A DNA stretch of 50,267 nt, taken from NCBI GenBank assembly GCA_021813145.1, contig JAKALS010000002.1, positions 99,595 to 149,861 on the forward strand, written 5' to 3'. The position numbers and the translations under genes are program-made. Position 1 is the first letter of the stretch. Each line of letters begins with the position of its first letter. The stretch comes from a bacterium. GTDB taxonomy: Bacteria > Patescibacteriota > Microgenomatia > Levybacterales > UBA12049. Below the pieces are notes generated by a model. The model was not told the origin of the DNA and did not search any database. It saw nothing but the letters and a program-made list of their open reading frames with translations. Of the stretch, positions 7,205 through 14,849 are shown piece after piece.

Positions 7205-8116
7205 ATGAAGAAGAAAACTGTCCACAAAAAGAAAAAAGTTCCTTCCAAAAAAGAAACCTCTTATCTTCAGTATGTTGTAATCACGTTTGCCATTGTTGCT
7301 TTGGTATTAATCGGACGTGCGGGATACCAAACCCTGAGCTCCACGGGCGTACTTGGAACATCCATTAACCAGGATGCCGGCGACCAGGAAGCGGGAGACC
7401 AGAATCAAGCTTCAAATTTGCCGGGAAGTGCCGGAGAACTCAGAAATGCGGGGAATGCCTTAAGACCGACACCTCCCGCAGATGCCTTAAACTCCGAAAT
7501 CAATAATGCAATCCAAAATACAAATAACGAAAGAAATACCGTTATGGAAAGAACGCAAACGGAAGCCGGTGGTGTTCCCCCCGAAGCAATAAGAAACCGT
7601 ACCCAGCTTGAACTTAACTCGAGCGAAAGTGCTCAGGTAAGAGAACAAACGCTTAATAAAATAAATGAGGCTCTTCAGGAAGCAGACCTTCATATAGGAA
7701 CAACCTCTGCTAACGAATTTGAAATAACAAACAAAAATACAAGAGCTATAACAAACTTTCCCTTAAGTGTTGATACGGCAACAAACATGCTTTCTGTAAC
7801 AACTCCAAACGGCACAAAAGATGTTGCCGTTTTACCGGATCAGGCGGTACAAAACCTTATTGCGCATAATGTTATCGACCAGGTCAGCCAGACAACCCCC
7901 TCAACCACAGGAGCCCAATTAGCTCTCGTTCAATTAAGACTTTACGGAAATAATCCTGTTTTTCAGGTAACCGGTACAGATAATAAAAATCTCTTTGGAT
8001 TCATACCAATAACAATAAACAGAACAGCTTTAGTCTCGGCGCAAACAGGCCAGGTGGTAACCGTTAACGAAAGTATCTTAAGTAAAATCTTTGACCTCTT
8101 TTCCGTCCAGCCTTAA
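7205..8116 (+). CDS. Hypothetical membrane-anchored extracytoplasmic protein
   Basis: Lys-rich N-terminus, single TM (YVVITFAIVALVLIG), then a polar Asn/Gln/Thr-rich domain; TTGACA-18-TGTAAT promoter. Confidence 0.75.
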   Translation: MKKKTVHKKKKVPSKKETSYLQYVVITFAIVALVLIGRAGYQTLSSTGVLGTSINQDAGDQEAGDQNQASNLPGSAGELRNAGNALRPTPPADALNSEINNAIQNTNNERNTVMERTQTEAGGVPPEAIRNRTQLELNSSESAQVREQTLNKINEALQEADLHIGTTSANEFEITNKNTRAITNFPLSVDTATNMLSVTTPNGTKDVAVLPDQAVQNLIAHNVIDQVSQTTPSTTGAQLALVQLRLYGNNPVFQVTGTDNKNLFGFIPITINRTALVSAQTGQVVTVNESILSKIFDLFSVQP

Positions 8117-9619
8117 TCAGGGATATCTTAATTTATATTCCCGAAGCTCTAACCCCGGGGAAAAATCTTTTATCAAAAGCCTCTGGTAATGAGTATCTAA
8201 ATAATTTTTTATAGAATTTTCGTAGCCCTGGTTGTAAGAAAAAATTACATACAGATCCCCGTAATTTTTCGTGTAGTTTTTAACCTGGGCGGCAAGTGAA
8301 ACGGTAGAGTATGAAGGAATTCTACCCGATTTATAAACATTCCAAAGGGGAATAGTAACTATAGAAGCAGAACCTTTATAATAATACTCAAAGGGATAAA
8401 TGGTAAAAGGCGAAGTAATTGCAATTATATCGTCAGGTTTTGCGTTTTTGTCAAGATAAAGAGCAACTCCCTGATAATCTTCCTTTACGGGTGTGGAATT
8501 TGAAATATTCTGAAAAATAAGAAATCCAAACATTGCAAGTGCAAATACCATAAGAACAAGAGCCGATAATTGCTTAGAAATATGAAAAAGAGTCCATGCC
8601 AAGAGTATAAAAAATGACGGTGTAACAAATATTAGATACCGCGTTAAGAATATCGGCTTAAAAAAAATCGACACCACAAAAACCAGGCCGATAGGAATCA
8701 TTACTGTAAGCAAAAAATAAAGGATATTTTCTATTTCTATATCGGATTTCCTTTTTGAAAAAAGAAAGAATATAGGTATAACAGAAAGAGGCCAAAGAGA
8801 AACAAGAAAAGACTGAAGACTTGTACTTTGAAAACCGAAAAGAAAATTTACGAGAGTCTGGAAAATATCATAGGGGGTGGTGGCGGGGATAAGGGGCTGG
8901 GTATTGGCAGCTCCTCCCTGGAGAAGAAAGAATATCACCCAGGGAAGAAAAAACAAAGCTGCCAAAAAGACTGGCGTAAGAAAATTTTTGATAATCCCGA
9001 AATTCCACTTTACATAATCTCTAAAAGATCCGACATGATTAAATCTTCTTATAAACCAATAGAGGAAAAAAATTCCCTGTGCCATTATCAGAAATATGAA
9101 AAAGTAATGGGTAAAAAGACCGAGAAGTATCGAAAAAAAGTATCCGACTTGTCCCCTTTTTCCTCCCGTATGTATCATCTTAAGGAAAAAATAATGGCTT
9201 AAAACAGCCATAAAAGTTACAATTGTGTACATTCGGATTTCGAACGAATACCAGATGATAAAAGGCGATAGCGAATAAAGAGCAATTGTTAAAAGAGCTA
9301 TTCTTGTATCGCTGGACTTTTTTGCGACAAGATACAATACCGGAATAGTAAAAAGAAAGAAAATAAAGGAAAGAAGACGGGCCGAAAATATACTAATCCC
9401 GAAAGCCTCTATCCAAAAATGTAAAATAAGTTCATATAAAGGGACCGTTACGTCCAAAGATATATAAGAAATGATTCCGGGGATACTCTTTGTTGCCACC
9501 CAAAGTGACTGTGCCTCGTCTAGTCTTAAAGACTGTTGGAATAAAGTATAAGCGCTTATCAAAAGCGAAAAGATTACAAACAAAAATATAATAATAAACG
9601 TACTTCTTTCTCTCGTCAT
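8117..9619 (-). CDS. GT-C membrane glycosyltransferase, GT39/ArnT-like
   Basis: Polytopic; luminal RLDEAQSLWVA acidic motif after TM1, PMT/ArnT-type topology. Confidence 0.82.
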   Translation of the reverse strand: MTRERSTFIIIFLFVIFSLLISAYTLFQQSLRLDEAQSLWVATKSIPGIISYISLDVTVPLYELILHFWIEAFGISIFSARLLSFIFFLFTIPVLYLVAKKSSDTRIALLTIALYSLSPFIIWYSFEIRMYTIVTFMAVLSHYFFLKMIHTGGKRGQVGYFFSILLGLFTHYFFIFLIMAQGIFFLYWFIRRFNHVGSFRDYVKWNFGIIKNFLTPVFLAALFFLPWVIFFLLQGGAANTQPLIPATTPYDIFQTLVNFLFGFQSTSLQSFLVSLWPLSVIPIFFLFSKRKSDIEIENILYFLLTVMIPIGLVFVVSIFFKPIFLTRYLIFVTPSFFILLAWTLFHISKQLSALVLMVFALAMFGFLIFQNISNSTPVKEDYQGVALYLDKNAKPDDIIAITSPFTIYPFEYYYKGSASIVTIPLWNVYKSGRIPSYSTVSLAAQVKNYTKNYGDLYVIFSYNQGYENSIKNYLDTHYQRLLIKDFSPGLELREYKLRYP

Positions 9620-9622
9620 GGT

Positions 9623-11125
9623 TTATTCTTGATACCCTATATTTGGAGACTGTCTGAATATAAAAAAACTCCTCCAGTTGTAAGCGGCCTTTATAAAAGG
9701 CAAAAACATTATTATGTTAAATATTGCCCAGGCGCTGTTTGTAAATACGGCCGGATTCTTGTTGTCGAGATTTAACGCAATACCGATTACCGCAAGTACA
9801 ATATATAAAAGATGGGGATAAATCAAAAATAAGTAATTGCCTTCCTGTCTTTTTTTTGAAGTTACGGCAAAACCCACTTTTCTTCTTGTTAAAAGGGAAA
9901 AAAGAGCGGAAAGCTGCAAAAACCAACTTGCCTGGGAAAAGGAAATTGCCCTGAAAGTTATACCGCCCCCCGAAACTAAAAAAATTGTATAAAGGTTTAA
10001 GAACATGTACGGAATAAAATAGAGCGCAAATGATTGAGTTGTGGAAGAAACGGGTTGTAAGCCGAAGAAAAGGAATAAGATAGGCATTATTATATCTATA
10101 AGAACTATAAGACCGTTAAGATAAAAAAGGGCCGAAAGAAAATATTCTACTCTTTGAGCAAAAGTAAATCCTCTCCTAAAAAATGGGTTATATCTGAATA
10201 ATATTTCTAAAGAACCCCTGGCCCAGCGCTGCTGTTGTTTATAATAAGAGAGCAAATCCAGTGGGGCAAGGCCTTCGGCAAGAATGTTTGGATAATATAC
10301 AGACTTCCATTTTCTCTTGTGGATGAAATAAGAGGTCAAAAAATCTTCGGCAATGCTTTTTTCGTTTATTCCTCCTACATCTTCAAGCGCTTTTCTTCTT
10401 AGTACAAGATTCGTTCCGCAGATAAAAGAGGAATTAAGGTTATCTTTTGCCGACATAATAGGCCCGAAAAAAAGATCTTGCTGTTCCCATGCTCCCCGCG
10501 TAATTTCATTCTGGTCGAAATTCTTGTAAAATTGCGGCGATTGAACAAAAGCAACTTTTTCATCGTAAAAATAAGGGACGAGTTTACTTAAAAAATCCTT
10601 ATTGGGAATCATGTCGGCGTCAAATATCGCTACGAGCTCGCTTTGAGTACTTCTTAAACCGTTATTGATATTGCCGGCTTTTGCCCCGCCCGGTATTCTT
10701 CTTGTTATGCATTCTACCCCCAAATCCTGTGATGTTCTTTCTATTTCCTTCCAGTTTTCTTTGTTTGCGACGAAGCCGTCGTTTAAAACAACCACTTTAA
10801 AGTTTGGATAATTCATTTCTTTTGCCGCTTTTATTGTCCGGGTAACTATGTCTACAGGCTCCCCTGCTACCGTTATAAATACGGTTACAGAGGGATCGAA
10901 GTAATTTGGTGAAGTCACTCTTTTTGGAATTTTCCTATTCCAAATCGTATACCAAAAGCCGAAGGACATGATTATATGATAGATTTCGCCAAAAAATAAA
11001 AGCGCATATAAAAAAACATTTCCCATATGAGGCAAATAAAACCACCAGGAAATATAAACAATTGCCATTAAAACGTTTATAAAAAGTAAAAGGTTGGGAA
11101 CATATCCCCTTGTTATTCTTTCCAT
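9623..11125 (-). CDS. Cellulose synthase-like processive GT2 (BcsA-like catalytic core)
   Basis: VVLNDG, FDADM, AEDFLTS and QQQRW (Q..RW) motifs between TM bundles; no recognisable C-terminal PilZ motif. Confidence 0.88.
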   Translation of the reverse strand: MERITRGYVPNLLLFINVLMAIVYISWWFYLPHMGNVFLYALLFFGEIYHIIMSFGFWYTIWNRKIPKRVTSPNYFDPSVTVFITVAGEPVDIVTRTIKAAKEMNYPNFKVVVLNDGFVANKENWKEIERTSQDLGVECITRRIPGGAKAGNINNGLRSTQSELVAIFDADMIPNKDFLSKLVPYFYDEKVAFVQSPQFYKNFDQNEITRGAWEQQDLFFGPIMSAKDNLNSSFICGTNLVLRRKALEDVGGINEKSIAEDFLTSYFIHKRKWKSVYYPNILAEGLAPLDLLSYYKQQQRWARGSLEILFRYNPFFRRGFTFAQRVEYFLSALFYLNGLIVLIDIIMPILFLFFGLQPVSSTTQSFALYFIPYMFLNLYTIFLVSGGGITFRAISFSQASWFLQLSALFSLLTRRKVGFAVTSKKRQEGNYLFLIYPHLLYIVLAVIGIALNLDNKNPAVFTNSAWAIFNIIMFLPFIKAAYNWRSFFIFRQSPNIGYQE

Positions 11126-11127
11126 AT

Positions 11128-12300
11128 TTAAAACTCCTGTAACTGGTTGTCATACAAAGCTGCTCCAAACCAGAGCCAGTTTTGCTCATAGTAAGGGAGA
11201 TTCGAGTTAAAAGAATTTGTGTCGTTTGAATAAAGACTTAATATCTTATCCTGATAAACTTTTTTTGCCAGAGAAGGATCGTTTACCAAAAAAAACGCAA
11301 GTGAAGTTGAGTACATTACGGGTCCTTCGTTTTGGCTGACAACACTTCCGTCATGGGCGTAAACACTCGCCAACTTTCCATTCTGTTTATACAGTGAAAT
11401 CAAAAAATTAAAATTATGTTTAAGGTAATTAAGCGCCTGTTGAGAATTATTCCAATGGTAATCAAGGTATATTCTCCAGGGTATTCTTACCGCTTCGTAT
11501 GCATAGTTTGTCGTAAGTCCGGAAATACCGGTTGGAGTTATTTGTCCGGTCGACTGGTCCATCGATATCCAATCGGGAGGAAGGCCTACGGATTTACTTT
11601 TATCCAAAGGCAAAGAACTTGAATTTTTTAACATCCCGTATCCCGGATTTATTAAAGAGTTCCAGTCGTGCTGTTTATCAACCTGGGCAAACACCCTGTA
11701 CTCGTATGGAGCAAAGTAAGAGGGATTGATTATAAGTTTTCCCTTAACATTGGCCCAGTTTCCTGCGGTTAAATAGCGTTTTCCGCTTGCAGTTCCCACT
11801 TCTATTTTCCATATATCGTTAAGTATCGGCATCGCCTGCGAAAGATATGAGGGTTGGTTCCATCTTTTAGAAGCCAGGATTAAGGCAAAGGCTATATCTT
11901 CGTCTGCGTCGCTTGCGGAATTCATGTCGCTTGCGCTCTGGAATCCATAAGTACCGTTGCTTTTCTTGCCCCATCTCCATCCGAATAGCCAGTCGTTCGG
12001 CCTTTTTAAATCGTTTTTTGTCCATGTCCAGGCGTTATCAAAAGTCGTTTTATCCCCTATCCATACGGCTCTTAACATTGCATAAGATTGTGCTTCAGAA
12101 GTTGTAATTCCTCCCTGGGAATAATCTATTACTCTTCCCTGCGGATTCATGAACTGGGTTTTATATTTTTCCCACGAGGAAGAAAGTAGGGTATATGTAG
12201 AAAAAGTAGGATTTTGGTTAGTAACCTTTGATGTAAAAAATACGTATAAAACCAAAATAATACTTATAAAAATTAAAAAGTATCCGATAATGTTTTTCAT
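11128..12300 (-). CDS. Glycoside hydrolase family 8 (BcsZ-like endoglucanase), membrane-anchored
   Basis: N-terminal TM; TTSEAQSYAMLRAVW and SASDADEDIAFALILA match GH8 catalytic regions. Confidence 0.87.
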   Translation of the reverse strand: MKNIIGYFLIFISIILVLYVFFTSKVTNQNPTFSTYTLLSSSWEKYKTQFMNPQGRVIDYSQGGITTSEAQSYAMLRAVWIGDKTTFDNAWTWTKNDLKRPNDWLFGWRWGKKSNGTYGFQSASDMNSASDADEDIAFALILASKRWNQPSYLSQAMPILNDIWKIEVGTASGKRYLTAGNWANVKGKLIINPSYFAPYEYRVFAQVDKQHDWNSLINPGYGMLKNSSSLPLDKSKSVGLPPDWISMDQSTGQITPTGISGLTTNYAYEAVRIPWRIYLDYHWNNSQQALNYLKHNFNFLISLYKQNGKLASVYAHDGSVVSQNEGPVMYSTSLAFFLVNDPSLAKKVYQDKILSLYSNDTNSFNSNLPYYEQNWLWFGAALYDNQLQEF

Positions 12301-12956
12301 AATAGGTTTCGCAAAATAGGAACAGAATTCATTCTGCTTCTTCTATAAATAATTCTTTCTTTAAGACTTTGGGGAATACTCATTTGCGATTTATCTATAA
12401 GCGTAAGACCCGTTACAAAGAAAAATGTCGCAAAACCCAGAAGTATTACTCTTATTGTCGGCGCATAAACGCTTGAAGCATAATAATCCTGTTCGGGAAT
12501 AATTTGGGAAATACCCGGAGGAGGCGAAGGCGGAGTATAAGCTTTTTTAATTACATTCTGAACATTTAAAGGAACTACTTCGGGAACAGAAGGGTGAGGG
12601 ATGGGTGTCGGCGACGGAGTTGGATCGGGCGTAGTATTTACAACAGGAGCAACTTTATCGGGCTTTGATGTTGGAGCAGGAGTAGGGGCGGGAGTCTTTT
12701 TTTCGTGAGAAGTACTTGGAACGGGAGTAGGGCTACTGCTTGGCATAGGAGAAGAACTGGGCGTAGGAGAGGCCGAAGGAGCAGGACTCGAACTTGGTAT
12801 AGGACTTGAACTCGGAGACGGGGTGGTACTTGGCGGGGCGGTAGATTCGGGTAAGGGTGTGGGGGTAGAAACAGGCAATGAAATCTGCGCAAAAGCAGTT
12901 GAAAAGTTTAAAGAAAAAAATAAAATTGATGCTGTAATCATTGCAAAATATTTCAT
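12297..12956 (-). CDS. Secreted/membrane protein with long Pro/Ser/Thr-rich linker and C-terminal TM
   Basis: Signal peptide, TPSPSSSPIPSSSPAPSASPTPSSSP linker, TM near the C-terminus; upstream SD AAGGAGG; ATGA overlap with the GH8 gene. Confidence 0.75.
   Translation of the reverse strand: MKYFAMITASILFFSLNFSTAFAQISLPVSTPTPLPESTAPPSTTPSPSSSPIPSSSPAPSASPTPSSSPMPSSSPTPVPSTSHEKKTPAPTPAPTSKPDKVAPVVNTTPDPTPSPTPIPHPSVPEVVPLNVQNVIKKAYTPPSPPPGISQIIPEQDYYASSVYAPTIRVILLGFATFFFVTGLTLIDKSQMSIPQSLKERIIYRRSRMNSVPILRNLL
12660..12880 (-). repeat. Low-complexity Pro/Ser coding repeat
   Basis: Repeated SSPxPSS units at the protein level and degenerate repeats in DNA. Confidence 0.75.
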
Positions 12957-13073
12957 AAAATAGCCCTCCTTCTTATTGCTTTTATCTTAAAGCTTTGAGC
13001 TTAAACGATTACAAGAAATATGTAAGAAAACTGCAAGATAAAAGCAGACTTAGAGTATTGCTATAATATGGAT

Positions 13074-13805
13074 ATGGAAAATAAAGATAAAACTGTTCGT
13101 TTGGATAAATTTCTATCGGACGCGGGAATAGTTTCGAGGCGCGGGGTAAAGCAGCTTCTTAAAAAGGAAGAAATAACCGTAAACGGAAAAAGGGTCCGCG
13201 AATCCGGAACAAGAATAATTGCAGGAAAAGATAAAATAGAAATTAACGGTTACCCTGTTAAAAAACCGGGGAAAGTTTACTTTATATTAAATAAACCCAT
13301 AGGATATATTTCTACAACATCGGACGAGCTTTACAGGGAAAATGTAGTTTCACTGATAGACACGCCCGAAAGGATATACCCCATCGGAAGGCTTGATAAA
13401 GATACTCACGGACTTATTCTTTTGACAAACGACGGAGAATTAACGCATAAACTTATCCATCCGAGATACCATGTAAATAAAACTTACCTTTTAAAAATAA
13501 AAGGAACCGTAAAGCCCATACAATTAAAAATATTAAGGGAGGGCGTAATGCTCGAAGACGGAATTACACTGCCCGCAACGGTTGATATAGAATCGGTAAA
13601 AAGCGATAAAACTGTCCTTAAGATGACAATACATGAAGGGCGAAACAGACAAATAAGAAGAATGTGCGAAGCGTTGGGGCTTGAGCTTTTGGATCTTCAG
13701 AGAATAGAGTTCGGTCCCCTAAGGCTGGGGAAATTAAAAGCGGGAGAATACCGAAATCTTACTAAAACAGAACTTGAATCCCTAAAGAAATCCGCTAACT
13801 TTTAA
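13074..13805 (+). CDS. Pseudouridine synthase, RsuA/RluB family
   Basis: S4 domain N-terminus, GRLDKDTHGLILLTNDGELTHKL, EGRNRQIRRMCEALG. Start placed at the second ATG (13074) because the track start 13068 immediately follows a TATAAT box. Confidence 0.9.
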   Translation: MENKDKTVRLDKFLSDAGIVSRRGVKQLLKKEEITVNGKRVRESGTRIIAGKDKIEINGYPVKKPGKVYFILNKPIGYISTTSDELYRENVVSLIDTPERIYPIGRLDKDTHGLILLTNDGELTHKLIHPRYHVNKTYLLKIKGTVKPIQLKILREGVMLEDGITLPATVDIESVKSDKTVLKMTIHEGRNRQIRRMCEALGLELLDLQRIEFGPLRLGKLKAGEYRNLTKTELESLKKSANF

Positions 13806-13866: not shown

Positions 13867-14139
13867 TTAGTGACAGGCATTACTATTGTTATATCCTGTC
13901 GCTCCGGGTTCCTGACCTACCGCTCCATTATGAGAGCCCGGTGCTCCTCCATTTGTTCCAAAAGAACTGCTGTTATACCCCCGGCCATGACCACCTGCAT
14001 AAACAGAATTCTGATAGTTAAAAGCACCATGGACTGCTCCGCAGGCAGAGGCGTTATTTGCGCCACCTTCTGCAAATGCACCTGCCGCGCTGGTCAAAAG
14101 TAAACCTGCAACCGCTGCTCCGATCAAAAATTTTTTCAT
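13867..14139 (-). CDS. Small secreted Gly/Asn/Ala-rich protein (90 aa) with two Cys
   Basis: Signal peptide MKKFLIGAAVAGLLLTSAAGAFA; strong SD GGGGAGGTG; own terminator. Confidence 0.75.
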   Translation of the reverse strand: MKKFLIGAAVAGLLLTSAAGAFAEGGANNASACGAVHGAFNYQNSVYAGGHGRGYNSSSFGTNGGAPGSHNGAVGQEPGATGYNNSNACH

Positions 14140-14396: not shown

Positions 14397-14849
14397 ATGG
14401 TAAAGCAAGAACGGGAAATAGTCCGCGACAGAACACTTCCATATGGAGAAACAAGAACAAAAATAAAAAACTTAATTGCCGGACGGGAAGGAGAATACGT
14501 ATCCGTGTCCGAGCTGGCAAGGCAAGTTAACCTTGCAAAGCAAACGGTAAGTATACATTTACAGAAACTTTCTAAAGACGGTGTTCAATTGCCCCTAACA
14601 AGGGAGCAATATCTTAGACAGCAAAAAGAAAGGAAGTTAACCGCAAAAAAAGCAGAAGAAGAAGCAAAAGATAATTTGAGGGCGGAGATAATAAGGCTTC
14701 GAAGGGAACAAAGGCTCGGAAACGCAGAAATTTCTTCTTTAACAGGTATTCCCGTAACTAGAGTAGAACATATTGTAGATTCTCAAAGAAGAAATGATGC
14801 TTCACTTAGGCTTAGGAGCAAACGCGGAACAAGAAAAAAAATTCTTTAG
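14397..14849 (+). CDS. DNA-binding protein with N-terminal winged-HTH-like and C-terminal HTH regions
   Basis: VSVSELARQVNLAKQTVSIHLQKLSKDG (HTH) and RLGNAEISSLTGIPVTRVEHIV (second HTH), basic tail. Confidence 0.65.
   Translation: MVKQEREIVRDRTLPYGETRTKIKNLIAGREGEYVSVSELARQVNLAKQTVSIHLQKLSKDGVQLPLTREQYLRQQKERKLTAKKAEEEAKDNLRAEIIRLRREQRLGNAEISSLTGIPVTRVEHIVDSQRRNDASLRLRSKRGTRKKIL

Follow-up and report, generated by a model that had tools for sequence, protein, structure and literature searches.

The DNA considered here is a stretch of 50,267 nucleotides (the window) from contig JAKALS010000002.1 of the bacterial assembly GCA_021813145.1, and its subject is a predicted polysaccharide locus at window positions 8117-12956. 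Four genes lie there in a tight minus-strand operon, encoding in order a small signal-peptide/transmembrane (TM) protein, a glycoside hydrolase of family GH8, a family GT2 glycosyltransferase resembling the cellulose synthase BcsA, and a PMT_2-type GT-C transferase, and from gene 1 down the genes overlap by 4 nt at the first junction and are separated by 2 nt at the second and 3 nt at the third. An earlier note, made from the sequence without database searches, had described four tightly packed genes on the minus strand of a possible Candidate Phyla Radiation (CPR) bacterium; the open reading frame (ORF) coordinates and the 2-4-nt junctions agree with the first point, and the nearest named relatives of the genome, Levybacteria, Daviesbacteria and Blackburnbacteria of the Microgenomates group, agree with the second. 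The locus is a variant of the cellulose-synthase kind that has neither PilZ nor BcsB, and its product and mechanism are discussed below as conditional readings.

The GT2 matches the Pfam families PF13641, PF13632, PF00535 and Cellulose_synt PF03552 (63.5 bits, cut-off 24.7), its best NCBIfam model is CelA TIGR03030 (E=1.3e-85, 288 bits, with PgaC at 86 and NodC at 32), and its best match in the PDB by sequence is BcsA of R. sphaeroides (2.4e-60). In an alignment of 55 homologues, D116, D169xD171, E260-D261 and Q297xxR300W301 are invariant, as are F419, T422 and K424 of the FxVTxK gating loop, in which the V position holds V or I. When the AlphaFold2 model (pLDDT 92.8) was compared with known structures by Foldseek, BcsA was again the best match (4p00, E=6e-30; 9b8v, TM-score 0.85, rmsd 2.7), plant CesA came second, hyaluronan and chitin synthases were far lower, and barley CslF6 was also matched. 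Two helices precede the catalytic domain and four follow it, corresponding to TM3-8 of BcsA, the helices that form its channel (PMC10237404). Sequence and model together point to a processive, BcsA-like glucan synthase of the cellulose-synthase kind, and the earlier recognition of such an enzyme by its D, DxD, ED and Q..RW motifs is upheld by both the alignment and the fold.

The four genes are regarded as a discrete unit because an exact empty site exists in the congeneric genome G016, in which the surrounding genes match one for one in the same order and exactly the four cassette genes are missing. There the pseudouridine synthase gene (window 13068-13805) directly adjoins the homologue of window 7205-8116. 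Two small genes that lie between FtsZ and the pseudouridine synthase are missing from G016 as well; of the features beside the cassette, a small signal-peptide ORF rich in Gly and Asn (window 13867-14139) and a protein with two helix-turn-helix motifs (window 14397-14849) are absent from it. The GC content of the cassette is 37.8%, against 39.4% for the window, a difference of only about 1.3 standard deviations, so composition gave no signal of recent foreign DNA. Carriage by viruses or phages was likewise rejected, a scan of viral contigs having returned only three distant GT2s (30-35% identity).

This GT2 is present in 12 of 281 genomes of the class, namely that of the window and eleven others at 53-57% identity, and a survey of synteny across Microgenomates, as the earlier note had proposed, found the order small protein, GH8, GT2, GT-C in 12/12 cassettes, with differing flanks. 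A wider survey, covering the best 80 matches in GTDB genomes, recovered GH8, GT2 and GT-C together in 75 loci, usually spaced by a few tens of bases. The taxa were nearly all CPR, including Microgenomates, Saccharibacteria, many Parcubacteria, WWE3, Dojkabacteria and Gracilibacteria, and about 4% of 380 CPR genomes carry the cassette. As it is conserved in at least 75 loci, the association cannot be due to chance. The earlier picture of a tiny CPR bacterium, probably dependent on a host, that carries such a system is supported, with the refinement that the system extends well beyond this one genome, being CPR-wide and reaching some actinobacteria.

Seven actinobacterial records (Geodermatophilus, Klenkia, Quadrisphaera, a 'Streptomyces' and an Actinomycetales metagenome-assembled genome; loci in Table 1) carry the triad GH8-GT2-GT-C. 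In the tree, these sequences nest inside CPR beside a saccharibacterial one (ultrafast bootstrap 100), which suggests a transfer of the triad from CPR to actinobacteria. This transfer is stated only as likely, because the approximately unbiased test against CPR monophyly gave p=0.035 despite the bootstrap value, and the strict claim that actinobacteria acquired the cassette from CPR was given up. Two further arrangements were seen in the survey. One metagenome-assembled genome labelled Chloroflexi (PMG_070) holds two cassette copies, L086 and L094, and the grouping of L094 with Saccharibacteria suggests mislabelled or mixed bins. In two genomes that have no cassette (L034 in G018, L035 in G090), a GH8 is encoded close to a divergent GT2 (22-24% identity) and to what is probably a GT-C, arranged differently, which may be another, remote system of this type.

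Table 1. Positions of the cassette genes, selected residues and related features (window coordinates)
Feature	Position	Strand	Basis and remarks
Gene 1, small protein, 219 aa	12297-12956	minus	ORF; signal peptide/N-terminal TM, Pro/Ser/Thr-rich linker, [FY]Y motif (QDYYASS...), C-terminal TM
Gene 2, GH8 endoglucanase-like, BcsZ-like, 390 aa	11128-12300	minus	ORF and profiles; N-terminal membrane anchor
Gene 3, BcsA-like processive GT2 (predicted), 500 aa	9623-11125	minus	ORF, profiles, model; without PilZ
Gene 4, GT-C, 500 aa	8117-9619	minus	PMT_2, catalytic Asp34-Glu35, C-terminal extracytoplasmic alpha/beta domain
GT2 gating-loop motif FAVTSK, residues 419-424	9854-9871	minus	Alignment of 55 homologues
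GH8 Glu69, catalytic acid (= Glu55 of E. coli BcsZ), within TTSEAQSY	12094-12096	minus	51/51 relatives
GH8 Glu269, catalytic-base position (= Asp243 of E. coli BcsZ)	11494-11496	minus	Asp in 44/51 relatives
Operon leader, intergenic	12957-13067	minus	AAGGAGG ribosome-binding site ahead of gene 1; sequence only
Actinobacterial loci			L114, L115, L120, L122, L124, L126, L137

Profile searches found no PilZ domain in the window GT2 or in any of its 55 homologues. The source genome (954 kb in 6 contigs, near-complete) was searched family by family, and with E. coli as a positive control neither PilZ nor BcsB was found anywhere in it; a concealed PilZ, within the synthase or in another part of the genome, and a BcsB encoded away from the locus were both rejected. 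That the synthase has no PilZ, and that no BcsB-, BcsC- or BcsG-like gene adjoins it, had been proposed from the sequence, and profiles and synteny now confirm it. The genome encodes one GGDEF protein (L033:1300-2100, G000:C5) with the active-site motif GGEEM, and cyclic di-GMP (c-di-GMP) may be made in this cell; since there is no PilZ protein, it cannot act through PilZ here. The absence of PilZ is what was observed, and from it we infer that c-di-GMP gating is absent. The further suggestion that direct c-di-GMP control is missing accordingly fits the absence of PilZ, but broader control could still exist, as there is a GGDEF gene.

The hydrolase is a clear GH8 member (PF01270, E=2.7e-50, 171.8 bits against a cut-off of 24) whose nearest NCBIfam model is BcsZ at 148.6 bits. 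It carries a hydrophobic anchor at its N-terminus, and beta-1,4-glucanases come closest to it, well ahead of xylanases. Both catalytic regions had been described as present; the catalytic acid and D131 are each kept in 51/51 relatives, but the base Asp is Glu here, and to judge from the sequence this Glu may or may not work. A second GH8 is encoded in the same genome (L037:6154-8373, G000:C4), secreted-looking and 739 aa long, with P/S/T-rich linkers and repeated domains. Long GH8 proteins of this type also occur in G146, G166 and G266, all of which are cassette carriers.

The small protein matched no Pfam family, and identity among its relatives is 12-29%. Conserved are the hydrophobic N-terminus, the flexible middle and, close ahead of the C-terminal TM helix, an [FY]Y motif. 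The Pro/Ser linker, given prominence in the earlier description, is indeed present in the window but proved dispensable, being variable and absent in several relatives, and was rejected as a conserved feature. The small protein is the upstream partner in 12/12 Microgenomates cassettes, in one as a 76-aa remnant (L049:7676-7906, the same as L074) that lies upstream of GH8 and keeps the FY motif with a disrupted C-terminal TM, possibly through frameshift or decay. A profile of its C-terminal part matched GH8-adjoining ORFs in 29 loci (E<=0.1) against 1 elsewhere, and that sole match (L071) is the same small protein, moved downstream of GT-C. Immediately upstream of the cassette in one locus (L081:4382-5704) lies a fusion of a DPMS-type GT2 with the small protein, including its signal peptide, linker and [FY]Y-TM part. 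BcsB is known to give BcsA one TM helix that is needed for activity (PMC10237404; PMC11022532), and because BcsB, GlxA and CcsB are all TM-anchored synthase partners, a BcsB-like job is proposed for the small protein, which by this analogy would be the membrane partner of the synthase.

The fourth gene product matches PMT_2 (PF13231) at 35.4 bits (cut-off 26.1), and across 52 GT-C members PMT_2 is found in 49 and the Asp-Glu pair of the first external loop in 51. A structure search with its model (pLDDT 93.6) placed ArnT nearest (5ezm, 1.8e-7), followed by OST, ALG and PMT, all of them weak matches, and a profile search of the PDB gave no sequence relatives. Among named profiles, that of an MT1671-type mycobacterial mannosyltransferase comes closest, again weakly, and no equivalog cut-off was reached. 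The previous assignment to GT39 therefore holds as far as the PMT_2/GT-C profile and the Asp-Glu motif go, but no finer than PMT_2/GT-C, the fold being nearest to ArnT. Two members (L091:8538-10301 and L102:8566-10206) are longer at the C-terminus with a LysM-like tail, LysM being present in 2/52. About 40 of the 80 loci have, no more than 4 kb away, genes of the DPMS/GtrA type, whose products make or handle polyprenyl-phosphate sugars, and in several loci these genes directly abut; the count has no background rate, and it is chiefly the abutting genes and the L081 fusion that carry the association. One GtrA/DPMS protein is encoded elsewhere in the window genome.

Because polyprenyl-phosphate-sugar synthases are nearby or fused, the GT-C probably adds a sugar outside the membrane, and it would thereby decorate the glucan or the small protein. 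The second acceptor could also be the only one: a PMT-like enzyme O-glycosylating the Ser/Thr/Pro linker would yield a glycoprotein stalk and leave the glucan untouched, an alternative that concerns the role of the GT-C alone. Such an activity fits the wide occurrence of PMT_2 and the Asp-Glu pair and a TM-score of 0.55 between Pmt4 and the model, and within the operon the GT-C has no Ser/Thr-rich partner other than the small protein. However, in L039, L046 and L048 the linker is absent or not Ser/Thr-rich and the GT-C is kept, the actinobacterial loci retain the GT-C with no small protein detected, and the closest named profile is the mannosyltransferase type just mentioned, so that glycosylation of the linker alone seems less likely than not.

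The identity of the polymer can be approached through the neighbours of the cassettes. Among 43 clustered secreted neighbour proteins there are 26 GH6, 6 GH5, 7 GH113 and 2 GH8. GH6 is a family of beta-1,4-glucanases, and it occurs in 12/380 CPR genomes, of which seven also have the synthase (Fisher p=1.6e-7), the two being adjacent in six. In E. coli, cellulose export requires the activity of the cellulase BcsZ (PMC11379886). As GH6 and GH5 cellulases dominate the neighbours, beta-1,4-glucan is the best candidate for the product, and by sequence, model and analogy the four genes probably constitute one surface-polysaccharide machine that makes and trims, most likely, beta-1,4-glucan (cellulose). 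A role of this product at the cell surface or in adhesion would follow by inference.

Several observations weigh against this reading. Both key enzymes score below the equivalog cut-offs of their nearest models, the GT2 at 288 bits under 699 for CelA and the GH8 at 148.6 bits under 299 for BcsZ, and the DADH of the DxD motif becomes DADM in the Microgenomates clade. The window GH8 may be slow or inactive because Glu replaces the catalytic-base Asp, the D243A substitution being known to inactivate E. coli BcsZ (PMC11379886). The small protein was not detected beside about half of the cassettes and may for that reason be accessory. Neither GH6 nor GH5 was found in the window's own genome, only the second GH8, and BcsA-like GT2s without PilZ can make other polymers, as in the pseudomonad Orphans (PMC10237404).

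The last point leads to the possibility that the synthase makes another processive beta-glycan, such as a mixed-linkage 1,3;1,4-glucan, a glucomannan or a polymer of mannose or GlcNAc. GH8 is also a family of lichenases, xylanases and chitosanases, the beta-mannanase-type GH113 supplies 7 of the 43 neighbour proteins, the mixed-linkage synthase CslF6 of barley is among the Foldseek matches, and the missed CelA and BcsZ cut-offs would fit such a product too. Nevertheless, BcsA is clearly the closest family in both sequence and fold, GH6 and GH5 cellulases prevail among the neighbours, and the GH8 stands nearest to beta-1,4-glucanases, which together make another glycan unlikely. It is highly improbable that the cluster serves cellulose scavenging with an incidental GT2: secreted GH6, GH5 and GH8 enzymes are nearby, and such content has been read as degradation capacity in a CPR genome study (PMC5581439), but the GH8-GT2-GT-C association is conserved, the GT2 retains all its catalytic residues, and cellulose synthases are routinely accompanied by cellulases (PMC11379886). 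Hardly credible is a non-processive, lipid-linked GT2 of a cell-wall glycan pathway, which the earlier note had named, beside a PilZ or BcsB homologue, among the findings that would overturn its reading, and neither outcome was obtained; many CPR GT2s are of that kind and polyprenyl-phosphate enzymes are nearby, yet QxxRW, the gating loop, the channel helices and the high-confidence BcsA fold contradict it, and it is among processive cellulose synthases that this GT2 falls.

If the machine makes beta-1,4-glucan, its operation may be pictured as follows. The GT2 would polymerize UDP-glucose, for whose supply the genome has a GalU-like protein (315 bits), in the cytoplasm and thread the chain through its own six-helix channel in the manner of BcsA, with the gating loop retained and the PilZ switch lost, so that c-di-GMP would not gate it via the synthase. 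The small protein would supply the single extra TM helix, the part played by BcsB in Gram-negatives, and place a flexible linker at the channel exit. Like BcsZ, the membrane-anchored GH8 would trim the chain as it emerges, and an adjoining secreted GH6 or GH5 cellulase, present in many relatives, would remodel or release it. Finally, the GT-C would move a sugar from a polyprenyl-phosphate donor, outside the membrane, onto the glucan as a cap or branch, or onto the Ser/Thr/Pro linker.

Given the roughly 1 Mb of DNA and the small number of biosynthetic pathways in CPR bacteria, a conserved cellulose-type synthase module that Microgenomates, Saccharibacteria, Parcubacteria and others have in common would be a defined candidate for a surface matrix or for host attachment. 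It would be a minimal natural synthase, reduced to TM3-8 without PilZ and BcsB, that could show the essentials of cellulose synthesis and secretion, and decorated cellulose is a possible product. The cassette sequences in culturable Geodermatophilus, Klenkia and Quadrisphaera make these ideas testable now. More tentatively, and with the balance of our judgement slightly against it, the loci might represent a separate, CPR-centred class of cellulose synthase passed to actinobacteria, with six helices and neither PilZ nor BcsB, a small protein whose one C-terminal TM helix replaces BcsB, and a GT-C that uses a polyprenyl-phosphate sugar to cap or branch the glucan at the outer face, by which epibionts would make decorated cellulose.

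No description of a CPR cellulose synthase locus was found in the literature searched, many subscription journals lying outside its reach; one candidate paper, PMC7563247, proved unrelated. Because PilZ and BcsB were not found and both equivalog cut-offs were missed, the locus is filed as a variant, BcsA-like rather than BcsA. It shares with the Gram-negative Bcs system (BcsA-BcsB-BcsZ-BcsC) the processive GT2 motifs, the gating loop, the channel fold and a GH8 in the operon, whereas PilZ, TM1-2, BcsB, BcsC, BcsG and other bcs genes are missing and a GT-C and the small signal-peptide/linker/TM protein are added. The clostridial CcsZABHI system likewise joins a synthase and a hydrolase to a non-homologous partner, external in its middle part and bounded by two terminal TM helices; there, however, CcsA has PilZ, CcsZ is a GH5, CcsB has a CBM11-like domain, and MBOAT/DHHW acetylation genes stand in place of the GT-C (PMC7710045). 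Streptomyces CslA-GlxA-CslZ resembles the locus in its BcsA-like GT2 with FxVTxK, its glucanase and its TM-anchored partner that is not BcsB, but CslA has a partial PilZ and responds to c-di-GMP, the partner is a copper radical oxidase, and the cluster as described has no GT-C and no GH8 (PMC11022532). The pseudomonad Orphan synthases also have a BcsA-like core without PilZ, but they carry a fused glycosidase domain and altered FxVTxK, HxKAG and FFCGS motifs, in contrast to the canonical gating-loop residues of the CPR GT2 (PMC10237404). With ArnT/GT83, PMT/GT39 and MT1671-type transferases, the GT-C shares the PMT_2 domain, the Asp-Glu motif and an ArnT-like fold, and it differs from ArnT/PMT-type enzymes in its identity of about 12%, its TM-score near 0.54 and its linkage to a cellulose-type synthase.

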